Assembly: GCF_030413175.1 (NCBI RefSeq)
Contig: NZ_CP129212.1
Span: 4,650,001 to 4,714,000 of the forward strand
Source: Bradyrhizobium roseum
GTDB lineage: Bacteria > Pseudomonadota > Alphaproteobacteria > Rhizobiales > Xanthobacteraceae
Direction of reading: 5' to 3'
Length of the DNA: 64,000 bases
Positions within the stretch are counted from its first letter, which is position 1; every line of letters starts with the position of its first letter. The position numbers and the translations under genes are program-made. The notes under the pieces are model-generated. The model searched no databases, was not told the DNA's origin, and worked only from the letters and a program-made list of their open reading frames with translations. Positions 1,928-59,740 of this stretch are shown piece by piece.

Positions 1928-3478
1928 ATGAACAGAACTCTGGGAGTCATCATCGCAGCGGCACTGGCCGTCACGGCCGTGCCGGCCTCGGCACAAACCA
2001 CCCTGAAGGTACGGCCGTTCGGTGATCTCAAGACCATCGATCCGATGGTGACGTCGGATTACATGGTCCGCAATCACGGCTACATGATCTACGACACGCT
2101 GTTTGCTCAGGATGAGAAAGGCACCATCAAACCGCAGATGGTACAAAGTTTCGCCACCACGCCGGACGGCCTGACCTGGACATTCGTGCTGCGCGACAAT
2201 CTGAAATTCCATGACGGTGCGGCCGTCACCGCCGCCGACGTCGTCGCCTCGCTCAGGCGCTGGGGCCAACTGGATGGCCTCGGCCAGCAATTGACCGCGC
2301 ACACGGCCTCACTGGAGGCCGTCGACGCCAAGACCGTCAAGCTCACCCTTCGGGATCGCTGGGGACTGGTGCTGGAGGCGCTCGGCAAGCCGAGTTCGAT
2401 GGTGCCGTTCATCATGCCCGAGCGGATTGCCAAAACGCCGACCAACGAGGCGGTCAAGGATCCGACCGGCTCCGGCCCGTTCATGATGAAGCGTGACGAG
2501 TGGTCACCGGGTTCGAAAGTGGTCTACGTCAAAGCGCCGACCTACGCGCCGCGCCAAGATCCGCCGAGCGGCCTCGCCGGTGGCAAGGTGGCAAATGTCG
2601 ATCGCGTCGAATGGGTGATCATCCCCGACGCGCAAACCGCGCTCAATGCGCTGCAAGCCGGCGAAATCGACATCTTCGAAGAGATTCCGCCTGATATGAT
2701 GACGCTGCTGAAAGGTAATGCCAAGGTGGGTATCGCCAGGCTTGCCGCGTTGCAGGGCGTGATGCGTCTCAACCAGGCGATCCCCCCGTTCAACAATGCC
2801 AAACTGCGCCAGGCCATGCTCCATCTGGTGGATCAGGAGCAGACGCTGCGCGCCTATGTCGACGACGCCTCGCTCTACACCAACTGCCCCTCGTTCTACA
2901 TGTGCGATTCGCCTTACTTCACCGACGCCGGCTGGCCAAAGCCAGACGTGGCCAAGGCGAAGCAACTGGTGAAGGAAAGCGGCTACGACGGGTCGCCGAT
3001 CGTGCTGCTCGATGCCACCGAAACCGCGCTGCATCCGCAGACGCTCGTGGTGGCGCAGGCGATGCGCGATATCGGGCTGAAGGTCGACTATCAGGCGATG
3101 GACTGGCCGACGCTGTCGACGCGGCGCGCCAGCAAGAATCCCGTCGCGCAAGGCGGCTGGTCCGCCTTCATGTCAGGGCCCGCGGCGCCGGATATGTTCG
3201 AGCCGGTCGGCCATCTGGCGTTGCGTTCGAACTGCGAAAAGGCCTGGTTCGGCTGGCCGTGCGACGAAACCATCGAGAAGCTGCGGGCGGAATTCACGAT
3301 GATTCCGGATCTCGAGGGCCGAAAGGCCAATGCGCGTGCGATCCAGCAGCGGGCCCTCGAAACCGTGCCCTACGTCCCGGTCGGACAGTTTTATCTGGTC
3401 CGGGGCTACCGCAAGGACCTCACCGGATTGCTCAGTGCGGGCGTCCCGGTCTACTGGAGCGTCGGCCGCGGGAAGTGA
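1928..3478 (+). CDS. ABC transporter substrate-binding protein, family 5 (peptide/nickel type)
   Basis: Periplasmic receptor of 516 residues. I chose the ATG at 1928 because GGGGAG lies about 9 bp upstream and it gives a clean Sec signal (MNRTLGVIIAAALAVTAVPASAQ); an in-frame upstream candidate at 1910 is less likely. The mature part shows the family-5 pattern: a DPM..SDY opening, YDTLF, WTFVLRDNLKFHDGAAVTAADVVASLRRW, and a VPYVPVGQFY-like end. The family binds peptides, opines, nickel chelates and other amines, so the ligand cannot be read from sequence. It lies directly after the two ATPase genes and is the last gene of this operon. Confidence 0.92.
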   Translation: MNRTLGVIIAAALAVTAVPASAQTTLKVRPFGDLKTIDPMVTSDYMVRNHGYMIYDTLFAQDEKGTIKPQMVQSFATTPDGLTWTFVLRDNLKFHDGAAVTAADVVASLRRWGQLDGLGQQLTAHTASLEAVDAKTVKLTLRDRWGLVLEALGKPSSMVPFIMPERIAKTPTNEAVKDPTGSGPFMMKRDEWSPGSKVVYVKAPTYAPRQDPPSGLAGGKVANVDRVEWVIIPDAQTALNALQAGEIDIFEEIPPDMMTLLKGNAKVGIARLAALQGVMRLNQAIPPFNNAKLRQAMLHLVDQEQTLRAYVDDASLYTNCPSFYMCDSPYFTDAGWPKPDVAKAKQLVKESGYDGSPIVLLDATETALHPQTLVVAQAMRDIGLKVDYQAMDWPTLSTRRASKNPVAQGGWSAFMSGPAAPDMFEPVGHLALRSNCEKAWFGWPCDETIEKLRAEFTMIPDLEGRKANARAIQQRALETVPYVPVGQFYLVRGYRKDLTGLLSAGVPVYWSVGRGK

Positions 3479-3957: not shown

Positions 3958-4710
3958 TCAGATCGGATCGTCGACGATCAAATGTGGCTTGCCCTGCGAA
4001 CAAGATTCGACACGCGCCCTGATACGAAAGGTGGCGGCAAGGTTTTCCGGCGTCAGAACATCGATCGCCGCACCGAAATCGTACAACGTCCCGCCGGAGA
4101 GGATCGCAACCTTGTCCGCGAATTTCAGCGCCAAGTCGAGATGATGCATCGCGATCAGCACGAGCATGCCGCCGTCGTGCGCAAGGTTGCGTACCTGCCG
4201 CATCGCTTCCAACTGGCGGTGCATGTCCAGCGCGCTGGTCGGCTCGTCCAGGAGCAGCACCTCCGGCTCGCGCACGAGACATTGGGCAAGCCCGACAAGC
4301 TGACGTTGTCCACCGCTCAGCTCGGAAAGGATTTCACTGGCCAGATCGCTCATATCGAGTTGCGCCAGCGCCTGGTCAACCGCCGACAGATCAGATTTCT
4401 CCAGACGCCAGCCGCTTACTTGTTTGCGTGCAAGCAGGACGGATTCGAACACGGTCAAGGCCGCGCTTGCGGTTTGGTCCTGAGGCATGTAGGCGATGGC
4501 GAGATTCCTGTCGCGCGCCCCTTCCAGCCGGCACTCGCCCGGACCCGGAAGAATGGCTGCCAGACGGCGGAACAGCGTCGACTTTCCCGCGGCATTCGGT
4601 CCAATGACGGCCACTACCTCACCGCCATGACAGGGGGGAATCGTCACATCACGCAGCACCTCGCGTGATCCAAAGCGGGCGCCAAGGCGATGCGTGCTGA
4701 GCACTACCAT
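3958..4710 (-). CDS. Iron-siderophore ABC transporter ATP-binding protein (FecE/FhuC type)
   Basis: Cytoplasmic ATPase, 250 residues, last gene of the siderophore operon. It starts MVVLSTHRLGARFG and overlaps the end of the permease gene by 7 bp. Motifs: Walker A GPNAAGKST, Q-loop YMPQD (as in FecE/BtuD), signature LSGGQRQLVGLAQCL, Walker B VLLLDEPTSALD, and an H-loop in which MHHLD is seen where many homologues have MHDLN. It powers import of ferric siderophore across the inner membrane through the neighbouring FecCD permease. Assignment to ferric-siderophore uptake rests on the family and on the operon context. Confidence 0.93.
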   Translation of the reverse strand: MVVLSTHRLGARFGSREVLRDVTIPPCHGGEVVAVIGPNAAGKSTLFRRLAAILPGPGECRLEGARDRNLAIAYMPQDQTASAALTVFESVLLARKQVSGWRLEKSDLSAVDQALAQLDMSDLASEILSELSGGQRQLVGLAQCLVREPEVLLLDEPTSALDMHRQLEAMRQVRNLAHDGGMLVLIAMHHLDLALKFADKVAILSGGTLYDFGAAIDVLTPENLAATFRIRARVESCSQGKPHLIVDDPI

Positions 4711-5771
4711 ATGTCTCTTCCGCTCTTCAGGATCAAATACAGGAAAACCGGCAATCCAATTGCCGAGGTGACGATGCCGATCGGCAGGACGGCGCCGGGT
4801 ACCACGACCTTGGTCAGGATCGAACTCAACGACATGATCAGCGCACCGGTCAGCGCACTCGCGGGCAGCAGGAACCGCTGGTCTTCGCCGACCATCATGC
4901 GGGCGATGTGCGGACCGACGAGACCGATGAAGCCGATCGTGCCCACGAACGCGACCGGGATCGCCGACAGCAGGGAGACCAGGATCAAGGTTTCGAGCCG
5001 CAGGCGACGCACGGGAATACCAAAGCTCGCCGCCCGCGCCTCGCCGAGACGCAGGGCCGTCAACTGCCAACGGCGGCGCAGAAAGACCGGCAGGGTTGCG
5101 CCCACGACGAGCGCAGTGATGGCAAGCTTGGGCCAATTTGCCTTGGTCAGGCTGCCCATGGTCCAGAACACGATGGCCGCGACCGCTTGTTCGGCCGCGA
5201 AATACTGGGTGATGGCGAGTGCCGTATTGAAGCTGAAAACCAGCGCGATGCCCAAAAGCACGATCATCTGGATCGAGGCACCGCGCCGAAGGCTGGCCAG
5301 ATGGATCAGGACGGCGGTCGCCATCGCTACGACGAAAGCATTGCCCGCGACGATGTAGTCGCCTGCCATGGGAAGCAGCGCGACACCAAAGGCGAGCGCC
5401 AGGGCCGCACCGAAGCTTGCACCTGCGGAGATGCCCAGCGTGAACGGGCTCGCCAGCGGATTGTTCAGGATCGTCTGCATCTGGGCGCCGGCGATGGCAA
5501 GCGCAACGCCGACCACGACGCCCATCAGGGCCGACGGCATCCGGATCGACCAGACAATGACGCGCATCTGCGGATCCGCCTCTGCCGGCAGAACAAGTGT
5601 GCGCACAACGTCTCCAAACCCATAGCTGGCCGGTCCAGTCGAAAGGTCGCCGAGCAGCGCGACGCAAACTCCGATCGTCAGCACGACCACAACGATCCAG
5701 CGCCTGGCGGTGAGCGCTCGGTAGGCGTCGCGTCCGGCCAGGGACAGTGCTTCAGTTTGGAGATTTGTCAT
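4704..5771 (-). CDS. Iron-siderophore ABC transporter permease (FecCD family)
   Basis: Inner-membrane permease of 355 residues with about ten predicted hydrophobic segments. FecCD hallmarks are visible: the VLPAEADPQMRVIVWSIR opening, RMPSALMGVVVGVALAIAGAQMQTILNNPLASP, LGISAGASFGAALAL, and FVGTIGFIGLVGPHIARMM near the C-terminus. One homodimeric FecCD protein of this length is enough for a transporter. It overlaps the binding-protein gene by 4 bp and the ATPase by 7 bp, so the three are translated as a unit. Substrate is inferred to be the ferric form of the siderophore made by this operon. Confidence 0.95.
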   Translation of the reverse strand: MTNLQTEALSLAGRDAYRALTARRWIVVVVLTIGVCVALLGDLSTGPASYGFGDVVRTLVLPAEADPQMRVIVWSIRMPSALMGVVVGVALAIAGAQMQTILNNPLASPFTLGISAGASFGAALALAFGVALLPMAGDYIVAGNAFVVAMATAVLIHLASLRRGASIQMIVLLGIALVFSFNTALAITQYFAAEQAVAAIVFWTMGSLTKANWPKLAITALVVGATLPVFLRRRWQLTALRLGEARAASFGIPVRRLRLETLILVSLLSAIPVAFVGTIGFIGLVGPHIARMMVGEDQRFLLPASALTGALIMSLSSILTKVVVPGAVLPIGIVTSAIGLPVFLYLILKSGRDIW

Positions 5772-6940
5772 CGTTGGCTGCTAGAAAGGCTGGTGCTGTA
5801 GCCGGATCGGTACTCGATCGGCAGGAAGCGCCGATGGTATTCGGCAAAGGTTGCATCGGGATCCAGATCGGCAAACAGATCAGGGTGCAGCCACTTCGCC
5901 AATTGCTGGACCGCAACGAATTCGTAGGGGCTATTGTAGAACTGGTGCCAGATGCCGTGAAAACTCCGCGTCTTCTTTGCCGCGATACCGGTATAGGCAT
6001 CGCGGGTGGTGAACCACTCGAGCTTCTTGCGCGTCAGGCGAGGATCTGCCCCCGGTCCGAGCGGTATCCAGCGGCCCCCGGGCACATAGGCTTGCCAGTC
6101 TGCGCTGGTAACCACCACATGCTCAGGATCGGCAACGATGACCTGTTCGGGACTGATCTGTCCGAAGGTCGAAGGGATGATGCTGCTTGCGATATTCTGG
6201 CCACCTGCGAGTTCGACATATCTGCCAAAATTCTCTGCGCCGAACGACAGGCAGCAATCTTGCGAGTAGCCTCCGATCCGTTCGATGAACACCTTGGGGC
6301 GCTTCGGTTGTTTGGCGGCGAGCACGTCGCTCACCGCCGCCATGGCCTGGCGGCGGAACGCGATGATCTCTTCCGCACGCGCCTCGCGCCCCATGATCTT
6401 GCCGAGCAGCCTGATGGTCGGCTCGGTGTTCTCCAGAGGATGGTGGCGAAAATCGACGTAGACGACCGGTATGCTGAGCGCCGCGAGCTTCTCGATGTAG
6501 TTGGCTTCCTTGTTGGCCTGCATGGCTTCCAGATTAAGCAGCACCACGTCGGGCTTCTGGATGATCGCCGACTCGATATCGATCAAACTGTCCTCCTGGC
6601 CCTTGAAGGAAGGAAGTTTCTCCAACTGGGGAAAAGCCTTGAGATATTGCGCATAAGTGGCCGGGTCGGCCGCGATCAGATCGGTACGCCAGGCGACCAC
6701 ATGTGCCAGCGGATCCCTGGGCTCCAGCGATGCAATGAGATAGAGCTGCCGACCTTCGCCCAAAAGCATGCGCTTGACGGGTGCGTTGAGGATCACCTGA
6801 CGGCCCGCAAGGTCCGTAAGGATAAGCGGCGCCTGCGTCTGTGCAGGTCCAGGTTCGCCGGCACATGCGGCTATTGGAAACAAGACGGTCAGAACAAGCG
6901 TCATCATCGCGGCATTCAGCAGCGAACGGCGATCCTTCAT
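5768..6940 (-). CDS. Periplasmic iron-siderophore-binding protein (FecB/FepB, TroA-like fold)
   Basis: 390 residues from the ATG at 6940, preceded by AGAGAGGT; a longer frame upstream would overlap the MFS gene without a ribosome site. The N-terminus is a signal peptide ending in IAAC, so it may be a lipoprotein. The core matches the periplasmic-binding PF01497 pattern: [26 protein letters not shown], a long helix, and [18 protein letters not shown]. It is longer than the usual 300 or so residues of FecB. It sits between the exporter and the FecCD permease with 4-bp overlaps on both sides. Predicted role is handing ferric siderophore from the TonB receptor to the permease. Confidence 0.88.
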
Positions 6941-8166
6941 CGTTGACCTCTCTTTTGAGTTGAGCGCGCCGCTTTGAACCATATGCCGAGGGCCGACAAG
7001 AATGATAAGGCATAAAGCGCGGCGACCAGCGGGAAAGCAGCACCGACACCGAAGAGCTGGGTGACCGCGACGCCGGCAATGATGCCGCTCGCGGAAGCAG
7101 CCTGCTGGGAGGCTTGCGCAAGGCCCAGGACCGCACCTTGCCGATCATTGGCCGCGGTGACCGAAATGAGCGCGAGAAGAACTGGCGTCGTTCCTCCAAG
7201 AAGTACGCCCCAGATAAAATACAGAAACGCGAATACGGCAACGGAGCCCGTGCTTCCCGCCAGATGCGTGACCAGAGCGCACGCGGCCGAAATAAGCACA
7301 TTGCCGCCCAGCACATAGGTTGGCGTTCTGTTCTCGAAGAGCCGCGCCCATAGCGGCGCGGCCACGACAAAGCCGCATGCCAGCAGTCCGTAAGTGAGGC
7401 CAGCCACCCAGTGCCGGGCGCCAAATATCTCGGTCATGTACAGCGCGAACGGAACCTGCAGGACCATGCGGCTGGCAAGCAGCATGCCCATCAGGACAAG
7501 AAGAGCTGCAAGCGGAACACCAGTCGACGCCGAAGGCTTTGCGGTACCCGCGCTTCCGGAACTGGCGGCAATAATTCCTGGCGGCGGAACGGGAAGGCTC
7601 AACCAGGCAACGGCAGCGCACAGCGCGCAGACTACACCGGCGGTCAGATTTATTGCGGCAAATGGCAAGCTATCGAGGATCAGCCCGCCCAGGAAGGCGC
7701 CGCCCAGCGAGCCCACATTGGTCGCAACCTGAAGCCAGGCGAACAGGCTGGCGCGGTCTTTCCCGCCGGTAACCTGCACGCCATAGGCCTGCGCTGGGGC
7801 GATGTAGCCGGCGCAGGCGCCCTGCAAGAAACGCAGCACCATGATCGTCCAGACATCCTGTGCAACGGCAACAAGCAACTGCGTGATGGCGAGGCCGCCG
7901 AGCGCCCGAACCATCATCAGCCGATTGCCATAGCGATCGCCCATTCGCCCCCAGAAGGCGCTGGTCAGCGACATGCCGATCATCGGGCCAACGTAGACGC
8001 CGATGCCTGCCAGCCCAAAGACACTGTCGGAAGGGCTCAGCAGCCTGATCTGGATCGGCCAGAATGGACCGCTCATTTCCATGGCGCCCATGGAAATGAA
8101 TTGCAGCCCGAACAGCGTAACGAAAACCGGTCCGAAGCCGCGAACCGCGGCAGAAGCGCTGGTCAT
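6937..8166 (-). CDS. MFS transporter, probable siderophore exporter (SbnD-like role)
   Basis: 409 residues, twelve predicted transmembrane segments. The major-facilitator loop 2-3 signature is visible as [21 protein letters not shown], and the protein opens with [26 protein letters not shown]. It overlaps both the synthetase gene upstream and the binding-protein gene downstream by 4 bp. In staphyloferrin B and several other NIS loci an MFS protein in this position exports the finished siderophore, so export is the likely job here. Direction and cargo cannot be read from sequence; uptake of the ferric complex is the alternative but is already served by the FecBCD system next to it. Confidence 0.85.
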
Positions 8167-10052
8167 TCCGCTCCCGCCATTGGATTTGGCAATTCGTGCT
8201 CAAGGCGATAGTCGCGATACCGCTCCAGATGCATCCGCAGCACCGAGCGGGTCGGCCACGGCTTCTCGAGAAATGCCCTGCGCTCCTCCAGCCAGAACGC
8301 GTCCGAAAGCATGCGCGGCCTCAGGGCATCAAACACTGCCTCGGTCTCTTTCCGCAGGATGTGCCAAAGTCTTGTGCCCGGCAGCGCATATTGTTCGTGA
8401 AGGCACAGCGCGATCTCATGAAGGTGGCAGAAGAAACAGGCGTCGATGACGAATGAGCGCACGGGAGTGATATCGTCGTCAAATGTGGTAGGCAATATCC
8501 CCACGCGGCTGAAGGGCTCGAGGTGGTGTCCGCGTTCCCTGAACAACGGCGCAAAGCTGCGACCATCGCCGAAGTCACGGATCAACAATTTTCGCGGGCA
8601 ACCGGCTTCATCGAACAGGATCGTGCTGTTCTGCTGATGCGCCTCAAAGGCTATTCCGTAAAGCAGGTACATGGCGAGCGTCGGCCCGATGACCGTTGCA
8701 GCATAGGCGCGAAAGAACGACGATACGGCCGCGGCGCTTTCATCGCCACGTCTCGCAATCAGTTCACAAATGAGCGGGCGGCCGTCGATCGGGCTTGCCG
8801 TCAAGAGTGCGGCGACGGTGACCGGCAACAGCCCGTCATTTCGTGCCAAGGCGTCGGAGTTGCGGTAGACGACCGAAAGAAAGCGCCCCGGGTGCTCATC
8901 ACCCGTTACCGGGTCGTGCAGGATGGCGCCCAGCTCTTCGGTGAAGATCTCCAGGGTCTCGGCGAGACCTCTCTCTTTTGAAAGAATATTCGCAATCAGG
9001 GTGCTGAGGCGCGGCCCCATGTGGATCGACTTGGCCTGCAGCGTACGCTGTTCGCTGGTCATCCAGATCGCGACCGGCAGTTTGATGAAGGGCCTCGATT
9101 CCCTTGTATCCGGCAGCATCGTGCGGAACGACATGGCGGGCAGCGTCACGACCTCCGGACCGTCAGGGTCGAAAACGCCGGAAGCGATCTCGGATGCGAA
9201 TTCACGGCGAACGAAATTTTCGAGGTGCCAGATATGAACAGGAAGCGGAAGCCAGTGCTCGGGAGACTTTCCACGCTTATTCAAGCCGTCGGCCCAATCG
9301 CGCCAGAGTTCGGGGAATTTCTGCGCGAACCATTCCAAATAGCTGCCGACATGCGGCATCTTCTCCACATAGGCCCACTCCTTGCGCAGCGCCGCGACGC
9401 GAACGGACACGCGAGCACCGAACTCCGGCGACAGCGCAGCGACCTCCTCCGCCGACAGGTTGGGTTTGGCCTTCCATGTCGGATAGAAGGGATGACCTTC
9501 CAGCGCACCCCACTGATCGAGGGCCATGGCCGCCAGATGCTTCGGCAGGCTGTTTTCCAGATATGCGAGGAACCCCGTCGCACCCGCCTCTGTCACTTTC
9601 CCCCGCAACTCGGCGCTCCAGCGCTCCCGGTGAGCACGTGCCAGCACGTCGTTGCGCATGCTGCCCTCGACGTCGCACATGAGATGCCGGACGCCATCCG
9701 GTGCGGGCGTGATGGCGAGGACGGGCGCGACCTGATCGATAAACTCGGACGGATCATCGATCCGGAGCCGAGTGCCGGTTTCATCGAGTATCTCGACAGA
9801 GCCGCGATTTTGAAATGTTCTGGCCGGCGCGCGACGCAGGTCACTGAAATACAGAACCCGGCGCGACTGCCAAAGCGGAAGCCATGCCTGGTTGCCCTCG
9901 CGCGCCCACAACAGTGCATCCGATTGAAGAAGCCGCTCGGCAAACAGGCAGCGGACCAACCGGTTGAGTGCGTTGCGCGACGCGGCCGACCGAAGGCGCT
10001 CGCCATGTGCCTCAGCTTCGGCATCTGCCGTCGAAGACATCCTCTGCTCCAT
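8163..10052 (-). CDS. IucA/IucC family NIS siderophore synthetase
   Basis: Cytosolic ATP-dependent ligase of 629 residues that joins a carboxylic acid to an amine or alcohol, as in aerobactin, achromobactin and staphyloferrin B synthesis. Family landmarks in order: [16 protein letters not shown] (ATP/substrate region, about 185-200), [25 protein letters not shown] (about 325-350), [17 protein letters not shown] (about 464-480) and [12 protein letters not shown]. The C-terminal FhuF-like part is present. It is the only NIS synthetase in the operon, whereas staphyloferrin B needs three (SbnC, SbnE, SbnF), so the product should be simpler or made by repeated use of one enzyme. A gap of 5 bp separates it from the opine-dehydrogenase gene. 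Confidence 0.93.
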
Positions 10053-10057
10053 AACGC

Positions 10058-11185
10058 TTACTCCGGCCAGTTTGCAGGCAAGCAGGTCGGCGGCGACTCG
10101 GTGAAGCCGCCGTTGAGCGCCCAGTTGTAGGTTTTCGTGATCGCGGGGGTTGCCACATCGAGCCGCGCGGCCAGTTCCACCAGCAGCGCCTGACCGCAGG
10201 CGATGTCTTCGTGGAAGGCACGGCTGGCGCGATCGATGACCAGGCCGGGCCCGTTCGGATTGGGAACAAGCGGGGCGTGAATGCCCGCATAGGCGCGGTT
10301 GGTTCGCAACAGCGAATACATGGTGCTGCTGTCTTCGATCTGGTCGCCGTAAGCCTCGATCAATTCCTGCCGGAGCGGCTTTACCGAGCTGAGATCGATG
10401 CCCAGGCGCGCCTCGACCGCATGCCGGATGGCCTGGTTCTCCGCATCACAGGCCTCCAGCAACTCGGCGCCGGCCCGCGGGCAATCGCTCCACCAGCAAA
10501 GCGGGCGGTCGAACGGCTTGTTTTCCCAGGGCGCGCCAGGCCCGATCAAGGCGTAGAGCACGGCGGGATGCATGATCGCGTTGCCCGGCGTCAGCGTAAT
10601 CTCCAGATAGTCCTGCAGCACCGTGACGGGCGCTTCGTAGAGCCGGCCGAGCATCGCCTGGAGCGCGACGACGCTCGCTTCGGTTTCGCGGCGGTGAAGA
10701 GCTGCGAACAAATGAGCCTTGGCGCCTCCCATGCGTACGCGCTCGCCCGGGATCAGCTCAAAGGCGGTATGCGGCACGTCCTTCATGCCCCAGATCACGG
10801 CATTGTCTGCGCCCGACAGGCTTTTCGCCGCCAACCAGTCGAAGCCGCAAAAGCCGGGAATCGCGCCGACATAGACCGGCCTGTCGCGGGGGAGATGCCG
10901 TGCGAGGTCGTCCAGGAGTGCAGGCCGCGCATGGGCCGGCTGTGTCACGATGACAAGGTCGGTGTCGGCGAGTGCCTCGCCCGGATCGGTACCGACATGG
11001 TCGGGCCGGCCGCCCAACACGAGACCGTCCGGCATCTCAGCCCGCCAAACGCCTTCGCCAAGCGCCCACCGATCGACGACGGCCGGCGCTCCCGTCAACA
11101 CCGACACAGTGACGCCTGCGCGCTGCTTGAACAGCACGGCATTCAAATGCCCCGTTCGCCCTGCCCCGCAGATCGTCACCTTCAT
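10058..11185 (-). CDS. Octopine/nopaline dehydrogenase family protein (candidate SbnB replacement or opine-forming enzyme)
   Basis: 375 residues. The N-terminal Rossmann domain starts VTICGAGRTGHLNAVLF (GxGxxG, NAD(P) binding). The C-terminal helical domain matches the NAD/NADP octopine/nopaline dehydrogenase family, with TLTPGNAIMHPAVLYALIGP carrying the family's conserved histidine (about 205-225). Known members interconvert an N-(carboxyalkyl) amino acid with an amino acid plus a keto acid. In staphyloferrin B synthesis SbnB oxidatively cleaves N-(1-amino-1-carboxyl-2-ethyl)-glutamate, an opine-like secondary amine, but SbnB belongs to the ornithine-cyclodeaminase family. This gene lies 3' of the SbnA-like gene with a 4-bp overlap, exactly where SbnB would be expected. 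The alternative is that it forms a carboxyethyl-amine group within the siderophore. Confidence 0.82.
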   Translation of the reverse strand: MKVTICGAGRTGHLNAVLFKQRAGVTVSVLTGAPAVVDRWALGEGVWRAEMPDGLVLGGRPDHVGTDPGEALADTDLVIVTQPAHARPALLDDLARHLPRDRPVYVGAIPGFCGFDWLAAKSLSGADNAVIWGMKDVPHTAFELIPGERVRMGGAKAHLFAALHRRETEASVVALQAMLGRLYEAPVTVLQDYLEITLTPGNAIMHPAVLYALIGPGAPWENKPFDRPLCWWSDCPRAGAELLEACDAENQAIRHAVEARLGIDLSSVKPLRQELIEAYGDQIEDSSTMYSLLRTNRAYAGIHAPLVPNPNGPGLVIDRASRAFHEDIACGQALLVELAARLDVATPAITKTYNWALNGGFTESPPTCLPANWPE

Positions 11186-12192
11186 GCAGCGCGGGCCCTT
11201 GCCGGCAGCCAGCCGTCAAGCTGCACGGCGATCGACGGATCCAGCAAGTCGCGCTTGGCCATCCATTCATCGTCGAAGACCGAACCGAGATATTTTTCAC
11301 CGCCATCGGCAACGGGCGTGACCACGGTGCCGGACAGCTTGCCGGCCGCAATGAATTCGAGCGCCTTGTAGATGGTGCCTCCCGTCGAGCCACCAACCAG
11401 AACTCCATAACGCCGCGCGATAAAGCGTGCCGTTTCGAAGGCCTGGGTATCGGTGACCTGTACCCCTTCGTCGATGCACCCATAATCGAGCACCTTGCCG
11501 ACTTCGTCGCCGGCGGGCGTACCCGTGCCCGACTGGTAGTAGGGATGGCCGGGTTTGCCGAAGACGATCGAGCCCGCCGGTTCTACCGCGATCGTTCGAA
11601 CGGCAGGATTAGCCCGCTTCAGGCGCTGGGCGATGCCGGTCATCGATCCCCCGGTGCCGACGCAACCCACATAGGCGTCCACGCCGTCGGGGAGCTGCGC
11701 CAGCAGCTCCTCTACGAAACCGGCATAGCCCTCCGGGTTTGCCGGATTGTCGGACTGGTTCATGAACAATGCATCGGGAAGCTGGGCGCCGAGTTGAGCC
11801 GCCAGCCGCTGCCGTTCCACCACGGCAACCTCGTCCTCCCGATAATCACCTTCGACATAACGAATTTCAGCACCAAGCGCGCGCATCGTGCGGATCTTGT
11901 CCGGTGCGGCGTGATGATCGACGACGGCAATGAAGCGCAGCCCCAACTCCAATGCGATCAACGCCAGTCCGATTCCGGTGTTTCCGGACGACGATTCGAC
12001 GATCGTGCCGCCCGGCGGGAGCCGCCCGTCTTCGAGCGCGGCAAGCACCATGCTGCGCGCCATGCGGTCCTTCATCGAGCCGCCCGGATTGTTCTTTTCA
12101 AGCTTCAGTACGAGCGTGGCGTCGCTGTTGGGTACCGCGATCGGCATCACCGGCGTATGGCCGATCAACTGGCTAACGGTCGTGCAGAGCAT
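11182..12192 (-). CDS. sbnA: SbnA-like PLP enzyme for 2,3-diaminopropionate synthesis (cysteine-synthase fold)
   Basis: 336 residues of the fold-type II PLP family. PLP lysine is K41 in the [12 protein letters not shown] motif; [10 protein letters not shown] (66-75) and VGCVGTGGS form the substrate and phosphate loops. In S. aureus SbnA replaces the phosphate of O-phospho-L-serine with glutamate, giving the precursor that is cleaved to L-2,3-diaminopropionate. I chose the ATG at 12192 (GGAGAGG upstream) although the frame is open further; this start overlaps the end of the previous gene by 28 bp. The SbnA identity comes mostly from company: SbnH-like, SbnI-like and NIS synthetase genes in one operon. 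A plain cysteine synthase is the fallback call. Confidence 0.82.
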
Positions 12193-13994
12193 TGTGCCTC
12201 TCCTATCGTGTCGGGAACGAGTGTTGGCTGCCCCTTTGCATCCTGAATCACGCAAAGGCGGCTCGGCATCGGGTGGCGATGAAACTCGTTTTCGAGGAGG
12301 TCCATCTGGTAGGCGGCGGTGTTGGCATAAACCAGCAAGTCTCCCGCGCGCGGAGGAAACGGAAAGGTGAGCCATCGGTTGCTCAGGACGTCGTCGTCCA
12401 GGCAGCTATGGCCTGCCAGATAGGCCCGGATCGGTCTTGCGGCGGCGGGCGGCGACATCGCCGGCACCAGGATGGGATCGACCAGGAATTCAGAGGCAAA
12501 CCAGGTTTCGCATGCGCTGAAGCTGCTGCCTTCGACGAAGACGACATGGGCATCAGGGCCGACCGCTTTGACGCGCGACACGCGGAAGACAGAAATCGCG
12601 GCCTGATCGGCCAGCGCTCGCCCGGGCTCCAGCGCCAACAGCAGCCCCTCCTGGACGAAATAGCTCGCGATGCTGCGGCCGTCGGCCATCCGCGCTTGCA
12701 GCAGACAGCGCAGCCATTCGGCCGCCGAGAGCTCTCCGCCGTAAGGATAGAAGGAGGCCGGCACCCTTCCGGTGCGATAGTCCTCGGGCTTCTGGATCTC
12801 GAGATAGGCCCGATAGGCGCGCTGATCGACATATTGGATCGGCAACCCGCCGCCGATGTCGATCATGCGCGGCGCAAAACCCAGCGCGCGGGATTCGTCG
12901 ATCAAGCCGGCGGCTTCGTCGATTGCCTGCGCGCGAGACTCCCAATCGTAACCGCTCAGATGAAAGTGCAGCCCGTCGAAGCGCAGCCGGCTTTCGCCGG
13001 CAATACGCGACAGGCAATGCCGGAAGACCGCCACGGGCATTCCAAAACGGCTTCGCGCCTGGCTGGCCGGACGCAGCCTCAGCAGCACCGGCTGAGCCGG
13101 ACCGCTTGCCGGCAATTCGCGGATCAAATCCTCCAGTTCTTCCGGCGAATCCACCGATATCAGCGCGTTGCAGCCGATAAGCTCCTTGTGGAATGCGGGC
13201 GTCTTCGCCGGACCGGTCGCCACCAGTTGCGCACCCTCGGCGCCGAGCTGCCGGGCATCCCGCAATTCATAAACGCTGGAGACGTCGACGCCCGCCTTTG
13301 CGCGCAGAGCCGCCGCCATGAGCCCGGGCGACTTGTTGACTTTTGCGCCATAGTAGAGCGCATGCGCGACCCCGCTCTCCCGCAGGACGTCTCTGAGCGC
13401 CGCGACATTCCCCTCGAGTTCGTCGGGCCAGATCAGATTAATCGGAGACCCATGCCGCGCGACCCAATCGAGCAGCAGCGCGCCGTTGTCTGCCAGGAGA
13501 TCCGCCGTGGCCGGCCGCAGAATCGGCGAGAGGCTCAAGTCTGTTTTATGATGGTTATGACACGCGGCTTCATGGTGACTGGAATTGGTTAGGGCATCTT
13601 CTGTCGGCACAGGGCAGCGCAACCCTTCCAATGGCAGGTTACAAGCCGGCAGTCCTTGGTCAAAAATGTGCCGGGTCGTCTTGCAGGGAAACTTTCGGCC
13701 GCTGCGCGCCATCTCGAGAATGCTGGCGGGCGTGATCGTCACGCCCGGGCGCCAGCTCTCCACCCGCACCGTGCTGTAGTCCAGGAGGAGGACCGGCACC
13801 AGCCGCAATTGCAGGGCTTCGGCCACGGCAAGCCGATGATGACCGTCCATCACGCAGAGAGCATCTTTCTCCGCCGTGATCGGAACTTCCCAGCAGCCCG
13901 TGCGGAGGATTTGCGCCTGCAGCTCCGCTACCCTGTCGGGATCGACCTCTTCGGTCGGGATCAAGCATGTTGGCGAAAGGAGGCAAACTTGCAT
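12165..13994 (-). CDS. Fusion of SbnI-like ParB/free-serine-kinase domain with SbnH-like PLP decarboxylase
   Basis: 609 residues with two parts. Residues 1-127 resemble the ParB/sulfiredoxin fold of SbnI, the free serine kinase of staphyloferrin B synthesis: an alternating [17 protein letters not shown] helix and the [14 protein letters not shown] motif at 48-61, followed by VPVLLLD. Residues 150-609 form a group IV, alanine-racemase-fold decarboxylase: PLP lysine K218 in [15 protein letters not shown] at 343-348, IDIGGG at 378-383, [10 protein letters not shown] at 456-465 and the second-subunit cysteine C531 in HSCLDDDVL. The linker (about 128-152) is rich in His and Asn. The frame is uninterrupted, so this is a real fusion. 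First gene of the operon; ribosome site at 13994 is weak. Kinase activity of the short first domain is inference. Confidence 0.85.
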
Positions 13995-14248
13995 ATCGAC
14001 CAGCCTGATTTTGTCAGCAGGAACGGTTCGGCAAGCTTTCTCAGGGTGGAATGGCTACGCTGCCGCCCATGCACTGGCTACGGGCAACATAGGGGGCTTG
14101 CAGGCAAGCCGGCTGATCACGAACGATCCGGTGGATCGGCGAGGACAGTGGCACGGGCAACGGACGAGCGAATGTGCCGACACTCTCGCCAACGATCGAG
14201 CCTGCAGAATCATCCATGACGAACCTCGCCAAGCTCAGGGAGCCGCGA
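13995..14248 (-). promoter_or_regulatory. Leader region of the siderophore biosynthesis operon
   Basis: Gap of 254 bp between the receptor gene and the first biosynthetic gene, both read leftward. It contains a perfect palindrome GGCTTGC-AG-GCAAGCC at 14095-14110 that could be an operator or a weak hairpin terminator of the receptor transcript. I see no convincing Fur or Irr box, so iron control is expected from biology but not shown here. Confidence 0.3.
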
Positions 14249-16525
14249 TTACATGTCCACGGTCATCGACAGCAGATAGGTGCGCGGTGCCCCCAGGTAG
14301 AACGTTCCGAAGGAGGCGACGCTGGACCAGTAACTCTCACCGGTCACGTTCTGCACGTTGGCGCGGAAGACCGTCTTCCTGCCGTTGATCGCCGTCGTGT
14401 AGCGGGCGCCGAGATCGAGCCGCGTCCACTCCGGGATCGGCTGTTTGTTCGCAGCATCGACGAACTGCCTGCCGGTGTAGATGACCGCCCCGTTGACGGT
14501 GAGCCCGGTCACCCACGGCAGATCCCACTCGGCGCCGATATTGGCCTGCACGTTCGGAACGCCGATCGGCGTGTTGCCGATATTTGCCACGTTGGCAGCC
14601 TTGGTCAGGGTGCCATCCAGCAGCGAGACGCCGCCGAGGACGCGGACATAGGGCATCAGTTCGCCGAAGACATTGAACTCGAGCCCACGCATCCGCGTTT
14701 CGCCGGTCGCCACGACGCGCCCAGACACGTTTTCGCCGCTCCCCTTCGTTATCTCGAAGGCGCTGAAAGTCGTTGCGACCCGGCCGAAGTCCACCTTGAT
14801 GCCGGCCTCGTACTGTTTGGCCATGTGGGGCGGGAGCAGTTCGCTGCCATTGGAAACATTCGGCTGCGACGGCGCGACATCGCCCCGGCTCAGACCTTCG
14901 ATATAGTTTGCATACAGGGAAACGTTCTCCAGGGGACGAACGACGAGACCGACCACGGGGGTCGTCGCGCTCTTGTCGTAGGAATTCCCCAACGTTCCGA
15001 CATTGGCGTTATAGTTGGCCGCCTCGACGCCCTGGCGCCGGACACCCAGCGTCAGCAAAACACGCTCATCAAGCACGGACATGGTGTCGGCGATCGAGAG
15101 CGCCGTGAGAGTGCTTTCCGAAAGCCGGGGGCGCCCGGGGATCTCGTTGGCGAACTGGGTTGGCGCAACCGTCGGGCTATAGATGTTCGACGTCACCGCG
15201 GTGCCGCTGGTGGTCCGCCGGAACAATTCGTCATGATAGACCGAACCCTGGAAGGTGACGGCATGGCGAACGAATCCAGTATCGAACCTGGCGCGGACGC
15301 CGCCATCATAGGTGTGCCGATCGATGCTGAGCCCGAAGAATCCCGGCGTCGAGGTCGTGTTGCCGAGGGCATTGGTGATCGTCGGGAGTCCGAAGAAGCG
15401 TTCGACATTGGTCTTCGATCCGCCGACGTCGGCAAACAGCGTCACCTGGCTGGTCAGATCGTATTCGTTGCGCCACAGGACGGATTGATCGCTGATGCGC
15501 GACCATTCCCAGGGCTGCGTCACGTTCAGGCGGCCATCCGGCGCCTTTGGCACCGGCACCCCGGCAGTCATGAGGAAGGGACGCGACGGAGCGTCGAATC
15601 GATCGGTCTGCGCGATCAGGTAAAACCAGGACCTGTACCGTTCGCCCTGATAGTCGAGCGCCAGCGCCCCGACACCCGTCGTCTCGGACTGGCGGTCAAT
15701 AGGCGTGTCGCCGCCGCGCAGGCTGCCGCTGGCGCGCACGCCCCATTGCCTGCTGTCGCCGTAGCGCCTTGCGACGTCCCAGTGACCGCCGAATCGGGAG
15801 GTCGAACCGTAACTCGCCGTGAGGCGGGTCAAATCCTCTGCCGCGCGCTTGGGCACGACGTTGATGACGCCGCCGACACCGCCATTGGGAGCAATGCCCG
15901 AGAGCGCGGCCGAAGGCCCCTTGAGCACTTCCAATCGCTCGACATAGTCCGTGAAGATTCGGTAGCTCGGCGCGATGCCGTAAAGCCCCTCGAAGGCAAA
16001 CTCGCCATTGTTGCCTTCGTTGATCGGGAAGCCGCGAATGTTGAAGGAATCGACGGTGCCGCCGGATGGGTGGGTGGCGCGCACCGAGGGATCCAGGATC
16101 AAGGCATCCGCACCCGTTGCCGCCTGCCGATCCCGGATGAACTGATCCGTATAGCTCGTCACGCTGAAGGGGGCCCTCATCGTGCTGGTATTCCCGAGCA
16201 TTCCCAGCCGCGCACCTTGAGCAACCTGGCCGCCCGCGAAGGCCGGCACGACACCCGGCTGCGATTGAACCGCGGCGGGCTCGGGTTGCGGAGCGCCAGG
16301 CACGGCCCGGCGTGAAGCCGACCGGGACCTCGCGTCGCTTCGCTTGGTTGGCGCACGACGGAGCGATTGCTGCGCCGGGGCATCGACCGTAACGGGTGGA
16401 AGGGAGGTGCCGCCCTGCGAGGTCTGGGATCGAGCAGGCGATTCGAACCACGCCAACAACGCCACACTACCGAGCAGCATCGCTCCGAAGCGAGCTACCG
16501 TACCAACCCCATCTGCACGTCGCAT
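14249..16525 (-). CDS. TonB-dependent siderophore receptor (FhuA/FecA-type outer-membrane protein)
   Basis: 758 residues from the ATG at 16525, which gives a signal peptide (MRRADGVGTVARFGAMLLGSVALLAWFESPARSQ). A basic low-complexity stretch (about 50-75) precedes the plug. Plug markers: SVTSYTDQFIRDRQAATGADALILDPSVRA, FNIRGFP, YGIAPSYRIFTDYVERLEVLKGPSAAL and GGVGGVINVVPKRA. The barrel follows and ends with the usual aromatic-rich strand (TFYLGAPRTYLLSMTVDM). It would import the ferric siderophore into the periplasm using TonB energy. The signal region lacks the extra STN signalling domain, so it is a plain transporter and not a transducer. It lies just upstream of the biosynthesis operon on the same strand. 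Confidence 0.95.
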   Translation of the reverse strand: MRRADGVGTVARFGAMLLGSVALLAWFESPARSQTSQGGTSLPPVTVDAPAQQSLRRAPTKRSDARSRSASRRAVPGAPQPEPAAVQSQPGVVPAFAGGQVAQGARLGMLGNTSTMRAPFSVTSYTDQFIRDRQAATGADALILDPSVRATHPSGGTVDSFNIRGFPINEGNNGEFAFEGLYGIAPSYRIFTDYVERLEVLKGPSAALSGIAPNGGVGGVINVVPKRAAEDLTRLTASYGSTSRFGGHWDVARRYGDSRQWGVRASGSLRGGDTPIDRQSETTGVGALALDYQGERYRSWFYLIAQTDRFDAPSRPFLMTAGVPVPKAPDGRLNVTQPWEWSRISDQSVLWRNEYDLTSQVTLFADVGGSKTNVERFFGLPTITNALGNTTSTPGFFGLSIDRHTYDGGVRARFDTGFVRHAVTFQGSVYHDELFRRTTSGTAVTSNIYSPTVAPTQFANEIPGRPRLSESTLTALSIADTMSVLDERVLLTLGVRRQGVEAANYNANVGTLGNSYDKSATTPVVGLVVRPLENVSLYANYIEGLSRGDVAPSQPNVSNGSELLPPHMAKQYEAGIKVDFGRVATTFSAFEITKGSGENVSGRVVATGETRMRGLEFNVFGELMPYVRVLGGVSLLDGTLTKAANVANIGNTPIGVPNVQANIGAEWDLPWVTGLTVNGAVIYTGRQFVDAANKQPIPEWTRLDLGARYTTAINGRKTVFRANVQNVTGESYWSSVASFGTFYLGAPRTYLLSMTVDM

Positions 16526-17009
16526 TTCCAGAAAGTCCCCATCAACACACCTCACCCGGCATGAACGCCTCCACGCCTCGGCCTGCAACAACCGCGGTTG
16601 AAGATCCGCTCTCCGTACTCGGGTTCGGCCGACACTTAAGGCGCCGCGAAAGCTCTCCCTGCGCAGATCGCACTCCACTCGGTTGCCTGCGCTTTCTTGA
16701 CAACCTTCGATTGTTGTCGATCTACGCTACTTCCTTAGAGCGATGTCATCGTGACCACAACGCAAATCTGCGCACTGCAACTTAGAATGCCTCGACGATC
16801 GCCGACGGGAGCCGGTCGATTCCGCGCCAGTCGATTCCGCGTTTGGAGAGATTCAAACTTGCTTGGAAGAATCTAGAATCGGCGTCTTCAAATTTGACAG
16901 GAAGATGCACGCGAGCGTGTTTGCAGAGCAGCGATCCGGCCTGCGCCACCACCAACCGGTCGACGCTGAGATCACCGATCCGTGTCTGGGTGGAGCCTGG
17001 CCAGTACCG
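16526..17009 (-). promoter_or_regulatory. Upstream region of the receptor gene with inverted repeat
   Basis: About 480 bp without a supportable gene. It should contain the receptor promoter (reading left) and the end of the acyl-CoA-ligase transcript. A perfect inverted repeat GACAACcttcgattGTTGTC at 16699-16718 (6-bp arms, 8-bp spacer) sits about 175 bp before the receptor start and is the best operator candidate. AGAATCTAGAATC near 16868 vaguely recalls an iron-control element but is not a proper match. Confidence 0.35.
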
Positions 17010-54732: not shown

Positions 54733-56385
54733 TCAGGCGGCTCGCTGATCGGTGGGGTTGTCGGCTTGGCGCAGGAGCTTCCATTCCCATGGCAGCAGCT
54801 CGTGCAGACGGGATACGGGAAGATCGGCGATGCGGGCGAGGACGTCGGCGAGCCAGGCTTTGGGATCGACGTCGTTCAGGCGACAGGTCGTGATCATCGT
54901 CAGCATGATGGCGGCGCGGTCAGCGCCACGCAGACTGCCGGCGAAGGTCCAGTTGCGCCTTCCCAAGGCGATGCCGCGCAACGCTCTTTCGGCGGCGTTG
55001 TTGCTGAGGCAGATCCTGCCATCGTCGAGGAAGCGGGCGAAGTCGTCCCAGCGCCTGAGCATGTAGTTCATGGGCTTCAGGACCTCGGCGGAGCGCGATA
55101 GGGTTTCTCGCTCGCGGAGCAGCCAGGCGTGCATGTCGTCGAGCAGCGGCTTGCTCTGCTCTTGGCGAACGGCACGCCGTTCGTCGGCACTGCGGCCATT
55201 GATGGCGCGCTCGATCTCGAACAGGGCGTCCAGACGCCTGACCGCCTCCAGCGCGATCGGGGAGACCGGTTTGCCTTTTTGTCCGTCCCGGGCGGTTTTC
55301 TCGATATCGGCCAGTTCGAAGAAGCCCCGCCGCGCATGGGCGAAGCAAAATGCCGGCGTGATTGGCATCGCTTTCTTCTGCGGGTCGAACAGCGGCTCGA
55401 AGCCATTGTAGCAGTCGGCTTGCAGGATGCCGGTGAAGGCGGCCAGATGCTTCTGCGGATGCTCACCTCGTCGGTCGCTCGAGGCGTAATAGACCGCCGC
55501 TGGCGGCGCAGGCCCACCGTAGGGCCGGTCATCCCGCACATAGGTCCAGATTCGTCCGGTCGTGCACTTGCTCTTGGCCAGGATACGGATGGTGGTGTCG
55601 TCGCCATGCAGGCGCTCCGCCGCGAGCACATGCCGCTCGATCAGTTGGAACAGCGGCATGACGGCGAAGGTTCCGTGGCCAACCTGGTCGGCCAGCGTCG
55701 ATAGCGGCAAGTCGATCCTCTCGGCCTTGAAGCGCACGCTCTGGCGATTGAGCGGGATATGCATGCCGAACTTGTCGAACAGGATCGTCGCCAGCAATTG
55801 CGGACCAATGAAGCCGCGCGGCGTGGCATGGAACGGTGCGGGCGACTGGCTGATCTTTTCGCAATCGCGGCAGGTGAACTTTTCTCGAACCGTCTCGATC
55901 AGCTTGAACCGACGCGGAATCTCCTCCAACGTCTCGGTCACATCCTCGCCCAGCTTCGCCAAGCGCGCCCCACCGCAGCAGGCGCAGGTCGTTGGCGCCT
56001 TAATGACGACCCGCTCGCGTTCGATGTCGTCCGGCCACGGCTTGCGCACCGGCCGCTTGCGCGTGAAGGCCCGAACGTTCTGTACCTTTGCAGCCGCGGC
56101 ACGCGCGGCGAGTTCATCCTCACTCGCCGTGGTGATCAGCTCTTCGAGCTCCAATTCCAACTGCTCGATCAGCCGCGCCGTGCGCTCGGAGCGCGGCCCG
56201 TACAGTTCGCGTTTGAGCTTCTCGATCCGCAGCTCGAGATGCGCGATCAGCGCCTCGTTGTCCGACAGCTCCGCCTGCGCACTGGCAGCCACCGCCTCGG
56301 CTCGCAGCCGCGCCTCACGCTCGGCCTGCAGCGCCGCCAGGGCACTCGCAAGGTCCGATGGAAGATCGTCCGGCTTCGATATCAT
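54733..56385 (-). CDS. tnpC: IS66 transposase TnpC
   Basis: 550 residues. N-terminal leucine-rich coiled coil (about 15-85), a zinc-binding pair CACCGG and CRDC (about 135-185), and a catalytic domain with acid residues in HGDDTTIRI, LQADCYNGF and SNNAAERALRGIALGRRNW, followed by the short IS66 C-terminal helix domain. Full length and intact. Confidence 0.95.
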   Translation of the reverse strand: MISKPDDLPSDLASALAALQAEREARLRAEAVAASAQAELSDNEALIAHLELRIEKLKRELYGPRSERTARLIEQLELELEELITTASEDELAARAAAAKVQNVRAFTRKRPVRKPWPDDIERERVVIKAPTTCACCGGARLAKLGEDVTETLEEIPRRFKLIETVREKFTCRDCEKISQSPAPFHATPRGFIGPQLLATILFDKFGMHIPLNRQSVRFKAERIDLPLSTLADQVGHGTFAVMPLFQLIERHVLAAERLHGDDTTIRILAKSKCTTGRIWTYVRDDRPYGGPAPPAAVYYASSDRRGEHPQKHLAAFTGILQADCYNGFEPLFDPQKKAMPITPAFCFAHARRGFFELADIEKTARDGQKGKPVSPIALEAVRRLDALFEIERAINGRSADERRAVRQEQSKPLLDDMHAWLLRERETLSRSAEVLKPMNYMLRRWDDFARFLDDGRICLSNNAAERALRGIALGRRNWTFAGSLRGADRAAIMLTMITTCRLNDVDPKAWLADVLARIADLPVSRLHELLPWEWKLLRQADNPTDQRAA

Positions 56386-58804: not shown

Positions 58805-59740
58805 ATGCTGAAGCTTGATACGATAGAAGAATTGCAGGCGCTGCACACCAACCAGGTGCAAGAAAGCTCAACTCTCGAATACAAGGCATCTGCCGCCATT
58901 GAGAACACCAATGAGCGCAAGCGAGAGATGGCCAAGGATATTTCCGCAATGGCCAACGCCGAAGGTGGCCAATTTGTTTACGGTATGACCGAGCACAACC
59001 ATCAACCAGCCGGGCTCGATGCGGGTATGAACCCCAATCCGTTTAACGGGCTCTGGTTTGAACAGGTCATCCAGCAGAACATCCAACCGCAAATCGAAGG
59101 GCTAAAAATACTTCAAATTCCGGTAGCAGCCGGAACCGTAGTCACCGTTATCACCGTACCGAAATCTCGCACGGTTCATCAGACAAAGGATGGCCGGTAC
59201 TACAGGCGCAGAAATTTCCGCAATGACGTGATGGAAGATTACGAAATTCGGGAAGCCTTCAATCGCACAACCACTCCTGAATTATTTATAAAGTTCGGTT
59301 TAGTAGATCAACCCGATCACGAGCTGAAGTTACCGGATGGCGAAAACCCGCCGCTAACCGCGCCTTTCCTTGTCCGCGCATCCATTGGCAACCGCTCAAC
59401 GCAACCTTCGTTTTACTCCGTCGTCAACATATTCGCTGATGTTCGGCTGGATGGAGGTCCATCCGGATTTAAAGACGGTCAGATCATCGCAACGAACACT
59501 GGCGTTCAGATCAGGAAATGGACGAAGTTATTCAGCATCCCGGGGCACTTTCCTATTTTTGCAGAAACGGCATTTTCCGTGTTCGAAAACCCTTGGGCTA
59601 TCTCGCTTCCTGCCGCTCTAATCGACAGTCAGGATGCCTTTTTGATCGGGTATTCAATCGCGGCACCCGGATACACGATTGAGAAATTCGGAATGCTCGC
59701 GCTGTTAAATCGACGAATTATGCTAGCCTTCGCTGACTAA
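58805..59740 (+). CDS. AlbA_2/Schlafen-domain ATP-binding protein
   Basis: 311 residues. The N-terminal 150 match the AlbA_2 (Schlafen-related) domain: ESSTLEYKASAAIENTNERKREMAKDISAMANAEGGQFVYGMTEHNHQPAGLD, then VVTVITVPKSRTVHQTKDGRYYRRRNFRNDVMEDYEIREAF. The remainder (about 160-311) is beta-rich and unrecognised. Prokaryotic proteins of this group include regulators and nucleases seen in mobile elements and defence islands. Intact amid broken phage genes, and sharing an upstream repeat with the HEPN-like gene at 61159, it looks like retained cargo. The last four bases overlap the convergent pseudogene. Confidence 0.82.
   Translation: MLKLDTIEELQALHTNQVQESSTLEYKASAAIENTNERKREMAKDISAMANAEGGQFVYGMTEHNHQPAGLDAGMNPNPFNGLWFEQVIQQNIQPQIEGLKILQIPVAAGTVVTVITVPKSRTVHQTKDGRYYRRRNFRNDVMEDYEIREAFNRTTTPELFIKFGLVDQPDHELKLPDGENPPLTAPFLVRASIGNRSTQPSFYSVVNIFADVRLDGGPSGFKDGQIIATNTGVQIRKWTKLFSIPGHFPIFAETAFSVFENPWAISLPAALIDSQDAFLIGYSIAAPGYTIEKFGMLALLNRRIMLAFAD

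Follow-up and report, generated by a model that had tools for sequence, protein, structure and literature searches.

In the genome of Bradyrhizobium roseum, a compact locus combines genes for a siderophore receptor, several biosynthetic enzymes, an exporter and an importer, raising the questions of which compound it produces and whether its architecture is new. The stretch analysed, referred to here as the window, comprises 64,000 nucleotides (positions 4,650,001 to 4,714,000 of contig NZ_CP129212.1, assembly GCF_030413175.1) and lies in a 7.32-Mb genome consisting of one contig. An original prediction, made from the sequence alone, had proposed a new arrangement of staphyloferrin-B-type genes serving an aminopolycarboxylate product such as rhizobactin. 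The locus is a known kind of siderophore cluster, the product of which can be named with fair confidence, and a probability of about 0.75 is assigned to the reading that rhizobactin, or a compound very close to it, is synthesized, secreted and taken up again through this locus.

The proposed route to rhizobactin

The structure of rhizobactin dates from 1985. The compound, whose source is E. meliloti DM4, consists of ethylenediamine, alanine, lysine and malate (PMC7676072). For each bond in this structure, the cluster contains one candidate enzyme, assigned by protein family: a serine-kinase/decarboxylase fusion, a pyridoxal 5'-phosphate (PLP)-dependent SbnA-like synthase, an octopine/opine dehydrogenase-like enzyme (ODH), and a synthetase of the nonribosomal peptide synthetase-independent siderophore (NIS) type. 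From the gene content, the families and folds, the conserved residues and the orthology observed, we infer the product, every substrate and the order of the steps.

In the proposed order, the kinase domain would provide O-phospho-L-serine, the beta-carbon of which would be coupled by the SbnA-like enzyme to the alpha-amine of L-lysine. In staphyloferrin B biosynthesis, the condensation of phosphoserine with glutamate by SbnA is followed by cleavage of the adduct by SbnB. The family of SbnB, which we take to be PF02423, has no gene in the window's genome, and the adduct is expected to stay whole here because no SbnB-type enzyme is present. The decarboxylase domain would then remove the serine-derived carboxyl group to give N-(2-aminoethyl)lysine, which contains the ethylenediamine unit; ODH would join the free amine to pyruvate and reduce the product to an N-(1-carboxyethyl) group; and the single NIS synthetase would acylate the lysine side-chain amine with malate. 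Export would proceed through the major facilitator superfamily (MFS) protein, with the iron complex returned by the receptor and the ATP-binding cassette (ABC) importer. Lysine as the amine, pyruvate as the keto acid and malate as the acyl donor are suggested by the proposed product. On this model, a staphyloferrin-type diaminopropionate module that lacks SbnB can turn into an ethylenediamine-forming module.

Evidence from a producer strain and from related genomes

The connection between the cluster and a known chemistry is provided by Pseudomonas sp. FEN. This strain makes rhizobactin and rhizobactin B, as established by mass spectrometry and nuclear magnetic resonance, and rhizobactin B drove the uptake of 58Fe in it (PMC7676072). 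Its genome contains one gene of the NIS synthetase family (PF04183) and one of the ODH family (PF02317), both on contig C13 and within its copy of the cluster (L079), in which, as in the window, the five types of enzyme are encoded together; the rhizobactin-type product proposed at the outset gains support from this finding. Identities between FEN and the window are 44% for the serine kinase (SerK), 50% for the decarboxylase, 71% for the SbnA-like enzyme, 54% for ODH and 52% for the NIS synthetase. A whole-genome family scan found the NIS synthetase to be the sole PF04183 gene of the window's genome as well. The ODH family is unique in the FEN genome and not in that of the window, where a second PF02317 gene lies at about 1.44 Mb (G000:C1:1442088-1442525). 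The same genes, when sought in other rhizobia, were found on accessory plasmids of S. meliloti AK83 and USDA1021 and, for the biosynthetic and export part, in NGR234.

A 2017 study suggesting rhizobactin-like genes in Pseudomonas corrugata is mentioned in PMC7676072; the available part of the FEN genome announcement names no cluster (PMC7849696). Among the papers listed by a literature search that reached few subscription journals, there was no assignment of these genes to rhizobactin and no structure for proteobactin, the siderophore of a related cluster discussed below.

To assess the distribution of the cluster, named genomes were scanned for the ODH protein; 92 places were confirmed, 80 of them kept, and the nearest named relatives of the window's ODH proved to be from Bradyrhizobium. 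With the window and five more, these form a set of 86 loci, in which the presence of ODH is left uncounted because 85 were found through it. Decarboxylase, SbnA-like and NIS genes occur in 86/86, the MFS gene in 85, SerK in 82 and the receptor in 81; the binding protein (at least 74), permease (at least 46) and ATPase (at least 35) have lower bounds only, because contigs or flanks end early and the transporters diverge. Decarboxylase and SbnA-like genes are neighbours in 86 loci, SbnA-like and ODH in 81, ODH and NIS in 78, NIS and MFS in 76, and SerK and decarboxylase in 38. The association of these genes exceeds chance. Across 85-86 rows from several orders (85 of the 86 NIS rows, one having been removed by a length filter), conservation reaches at least 97% at many positions, including H206 and D327 of ODH (86 rows).

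Copies of the cluster occur among rhizobia, Pseudomonas, Burkholderiales and Pectobacterium, and their occurrence is scattered: 3 of 296 genomes scanned from the family (E ≤1e-10) have ODH, as do 3 of 385 scanned from the class (E ≤1e-40), the window's own being counted in both. In a plasmid collection, ODH matches 43 records (E ≤1e-30), one at just 39% identity, and four were examined. Two 4-Mb Proteus mirabilis records filed there among plasmids (NZ_OL790811.1 and NZ_OL790812.1) look like chromosomes. In the Pectobacterium locus L080, the receptor and NIS genes match in several pieces only, as if broken or misassembled.

A tree of NIS synthetases included 42 of the 86 cluster loci, 13 outsiders, and L100, L101 and L115, which had been labelled beforehand as cluster members by identity or annotation. 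The proteins of the window, FEN, P. mirabilis (L090), S. meliloti AK83 and NGR234 (L115) fall into one 45-row group, with the 13 others outside; its support is 92/92, and it is present in 90% of 200 bootstrap trees. An order-level scan with the NIS protein found matches in 13 of 397 genomes (E ≤1e-20), of which three, those of the window's genome, L100 and L101, fall within the cluster group of the tree.

Several observations weigh against rhizobactin as the product. FEN yields more rhizobactin B, which carries citramalate, than rhizobactin, and its authors point to two genes resembling rhbA and rhbB of rhizobactin 1021 (PMC7676072). The FEN enzymes are just 44-71% identical to those of the window, so that substrate choice could have shifted. 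Among the results there is no record of E. meliloti DM4, while other S. meliloti records carry the cluster. A review predicts a route different from the one proposed here, with a hydroxycarboxylate formed from oxaloacetate by PbtA, the NIS synthetase of the proteobactin cluster (PMC11026637). The support of 92/92 for the NIS group is below the value that the tree tool marks with a star, and the tool warns of long branches. The SerK match (E 2e-8) is far below the cut-off of NF053625, and the SbnA-like protein is also below that of its named model. Finally, a scan of 86 sequences for Fur boxes (19-base consensus, at most 4 mismatches) gave no site in the window or in the other rhizobial or Pseudomonas loci, and no clear Fur or Irr site was found upstream of the receptor in the Bradyrhizobium-type clade.

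The alternative that survives best, though unlikely, is that the same logic assembles other blocks: ornithine or diaminobutyrate in place of lysine, another keto acid, or citrate or citramalate in place of malate. The best named model for the window's NIS synthetase is FslA of rhizoferrin, an enzyme that uses citrate, at 269 bits versus a cut-off of 1000. The NIS synthetase, decarboxylase and ODH are just 50-54% identical to those of FEN, which itself has two products (PMC7676072). The positions conserved across several orders weigh against this alternative, and a further indication comes from a CitE-like gene (HpcH/HpaI family; PbtI in Proteus) found in 30 of the 86 loci, namely 21 of Pseudomonas (FEN included), 7 of Pectobacterium/Samsonia, and one each of Proteus and Bosea. 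This gene may supply citramalate and explain the choice of citramalate versus malate, a role proposed because the more abundant product of FEN carries citramalate; PMC11026637 instead suggests that PbtI makes oxaloacetate. The gene is absent from the fetched stretches of the rhizobial loci, the rest of these genomes not having been searched, which may point to plain malate there; it is likewise absent from the fetched stretches of betaproteobacterial, Thalassospira and Methylobacterium loci.

A second alternative, compatible with the others and rated as improbable, holds that the pathway is silent or impaired in this strain, small changes at the kinase-decarboxylase junction having created a fusion that could disturb one half. 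In the window's genome the two form one open frame of 609 residues, with a free-serine-kinase (SerK/SbnI-like) domain at about residues 1-130 and a PLP decarboxylase domain, whose relatives are annotated as the Y4yA family, at about residues 160-600. The SbnI/SbnH-like fusion of the original prediction is real as a frame in the sequence at hand, yet it is atypical: the kinase and the decarboxylase occupy separate frames in 76/76 comparable loci (the 80 named loci less 4 without a kinase match beside the cluster), and they are also apart in six further loci outside the 76. The junction is unlike that of close relatives: in the two closest genomes, a stop codon and a fresh ATG separate kinase from decarboxylase. 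The single frame could reflect either a genuine fusion or an error in the sequence. Against impairment, the frame is open through all 609 residues, and both halves keep their conserved residues, those of the kinase being E15, D50, G51, H53 and R54 (at least 97% conserved, 82 SerK rows). In support of the proposed kinase step, the structure predicted for this domain (pLDDT 92) aligns with those of SerK and SbnI across 126-132 residues; the SerK structure alignment has 40 rows. In the related genome G043, the kinase (L093:5714-6118) reads DGDHR where the conserved motif reads DGHHR.

It is more improbable still, though only slightly, that the main target of the chelator is zinc, nickel or some other metal, as for opine zincophores. 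In favour of this reading are the cluster's enzyme of the opine dehydrogenase family and the ability of rhizobactin B to bind Cu, Mo, Zn and Al as well (PMC7676072). Against it, the window's genome has no match to PF03059, the nicotianamine synthase family, to which CntL-type enzymes presumably belong; the opine zincophore was set aside on this result. The FEN genome has two weak PF03059 matches, of which one narrowly passes the cut-off, on contigs other than that of the cluster. A siderophore-type receptor, Fec/Fhu-type uptake genes and, in FEN, a FecR gene adjoining the receptor argue for iron, as does the iron repression of the pbt (proteobactin) genes, which have Fur consensus sites (PMC11026637).

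A conserved block upstream of the receptor is common to 10 of 10 aligned Bradyrhizobium-type loci and, judged from the alignment, is probably a promoter or operator. One match to an iron control element (ICE)-like pattern overlaps this block; the window as a whole has 8 such matches versus 4.6 expected, and 11 of 100 shuffles reach 8. Fur-like sites occur in 4 of the 86 sequences scanned: in L052, 62 bases before the receptor match; in L090 (Proteus) at 3445, with 3 mismatches, about 96 bases before the permease open reading frame (ORF); and in L042 and L044, near no cluster gene.

Staphyloferrin B or a similar compound can be dismissed almost entirely, as had been predicted, for although SbnA-, SbnH- and SbnI-like functions are present, the genome has a single PF04183 gene in place of the three NIS synthetases SbnC, SbnE and SbnF and no gene of the SbnB family (PF02423), and the octopine-dehydrogenase-like gene would have no role.

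Organization of the locus

The genes named in the original prediction were all recovered by family scans as nine genes on the minus strand between 3958 and 16525, from the receptor ATG at 16525 to the stop of the ABC ATPase at 3958 (Table 1).

Table 1. Features of the locus in window coordinates, with the CitE-like genes of three other loci in the coordinates of those loci
Feature	Position	Strand	Basis
Conserved block upstream of receptor	16755..16794	-	alignment
TonB-dependent siderophore receptor	14249..16525	-	TIGR01783 314.7 bits, over cut-off; Pfam Plug + barrel
Serine-kinase/decarboxylase fusion	12165..13994	-	SerK model NF053625 E 2e-8; PF02784 E 2e-19
SbnA-like PLP synthase	11182..12192	-	TIGR03945 236 bits, under equivalog cut-off of 350
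Octopine/opine dehydrogenase-like enzyme (ODH)	10058..11185	-	PF02317 E 5e-29
NIS synthetase, Y4xN/PbtA group	8163..10052	-	PF04183 + PF06276
MFS exporter, FslB-like	6937..8166	-	PF07690; FslB 126 bits, under cut-off
Periplasmic binding protein, FhuD/FecB type	5768..6940	-	PF01497; NF010649 under cut-off
FecCD-type permease	4704..5771	-	PF01032 E 6e-77
FecE-type ABC ATPase	3958..4710	-	PF00005
CitE-like gene	L079 6056-6856, L090 5488-6324, L071 2183-3064	-	HpcH/HpaI family

Some start positions were chosen within longer frames or by context. The receptor ORF opens at 16678, and the ATG at 16525 is taken as its start; the ORF of the binding protein opens at 6982, with 6940 as the likely start; and the start of the SbnA-like gene at 12192 was set by an AGGAG motif and by the N-termini of homologues. 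With 6940 as the FecB start, five junctions of the last eight genes comprise one 5-bp gap and four 4-bp overlaps, within the predicted limit of 5 bp, which the other two junctions exceed: the SbnA-like gene (start 12192) overlaps the fusion (end 12165) by 28 bp, and FecE (start 4710) overlaps the permease (end 4704) by 7 bp. The importer, given as FecBCD in the original prediction, combines a binding protein of the FecB type with a single permease of the FecCD type and an ATPase of the FecE type. The PDB matches of the SbnA-like protein include SbnA chains, though not as best matches, and Pecten octopine dehydrogenase matches ODH at E 9e-30.

The two genes flanking the locus are present in 32 of 146 and 18 of 146 genomes of the genus, the window's own included; in the other genomes with both, the two sit on different contigs. 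Between 52000 and 64000 of the window, G+C falls to 0.53-0.55 in several stretches; this low-G+C part, where an IS66 transposase gene (54733-56385) and a gene of the AlbA_2/Schlafen type (58805-59740) are located, may mark the border of an island or mobile element.

Comparison with known clusters

The closest described system is the proteobactin (pbt) NIS cluster of Proteus mirabilis (Himpsl 2010), which is covered in the review PMC11026637. The genes listed there are the NIS synthetase PbtA, a receptor, a decarboxylase, a PLP enzyme, an octopine-type dehydrogenase, an MFS protein, a binding protein, an ABC permease, an ATPase and one hypothetical protein (PMC11026637), and gene for gene the window's set is the same, each member being found in P. 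mirabilis H63. The row in H63 ends with a 148-residue SerK homologue (L090:16494-16940), which is probably the hypothetical protein of pbt. In Proteus the gene order is different, SerK is separate and the CitE-like gene PbtI is extra; the five enzymes are 43-65% identical to those of the window. According to the review, PbtA groups with Y4xN of S. fredii (PMC11026637), and the NIS tree obtained here agrees. The architecture, which the original prediction had held to be new, is thus already known from its one-to-one match to pbt. While the gene set can no longer count as novel, this orthology leaves the rhizobactin reading unrefuted, since the available passages of PMC11026637 give no chemical structure for proteobactin.

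The plasmid pNGR234a of S. fredii NGR234 shares SerK (ParB), Y4yA, a cysteine-synthase-family gene, ODH, NIS and MFS genes in the window's order. It differs in that SerK and Y4yA are separate and the cluster lies between nopX and nopL; the 19 kb viewed contain no receptor, binding protein or ABC genes. This cluster (L115 6192-13237) adjoins symbiotic type III secretion genes, as if it served symbiosis and not the strain's own uptake. The FEN locus differs from the window in its separate SerK, placed beside a CitE-like gene, and in the FecR gene by the receptor. The staphyloferrin B (sbn) cluster shares the SbnA-, SbnH- and SbnI-like steps with the window, which has no SbnB, one NIS synthetase and not three, and an additional octopine-type dehydrogenase.

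A wider proposal, to which somewhat less than an even chance is given, is that the whole gene family represents the rhizobactin pathway, that proteobactin is identical to rhizobactin or to the form with citramalate, that the CitE-like gene provides the citramalate and marks producers of rhizobactin B, and that plain rhizobactin is the product of the window's strain, made with a kinase-decarboxylase fusion. Rhizobactin genes are not clearly assigned in the accessible literature, in which one recent producer paper names those of a different siderophore, rhizobactin 1021. If the proposal is true, rhizobactin gains a gene set, the proteobactin/y4xN cluster gains a structure, and this share of iron competition in rhizobia and plant-associated bacteria becomes predictable from genomes. 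The predicted product would belong to the same class as EDDS and EDHA, which are aminopolycarboxylic acid metallophores. A rule for this class is included in antiSMASH 7 (PMC10320115).

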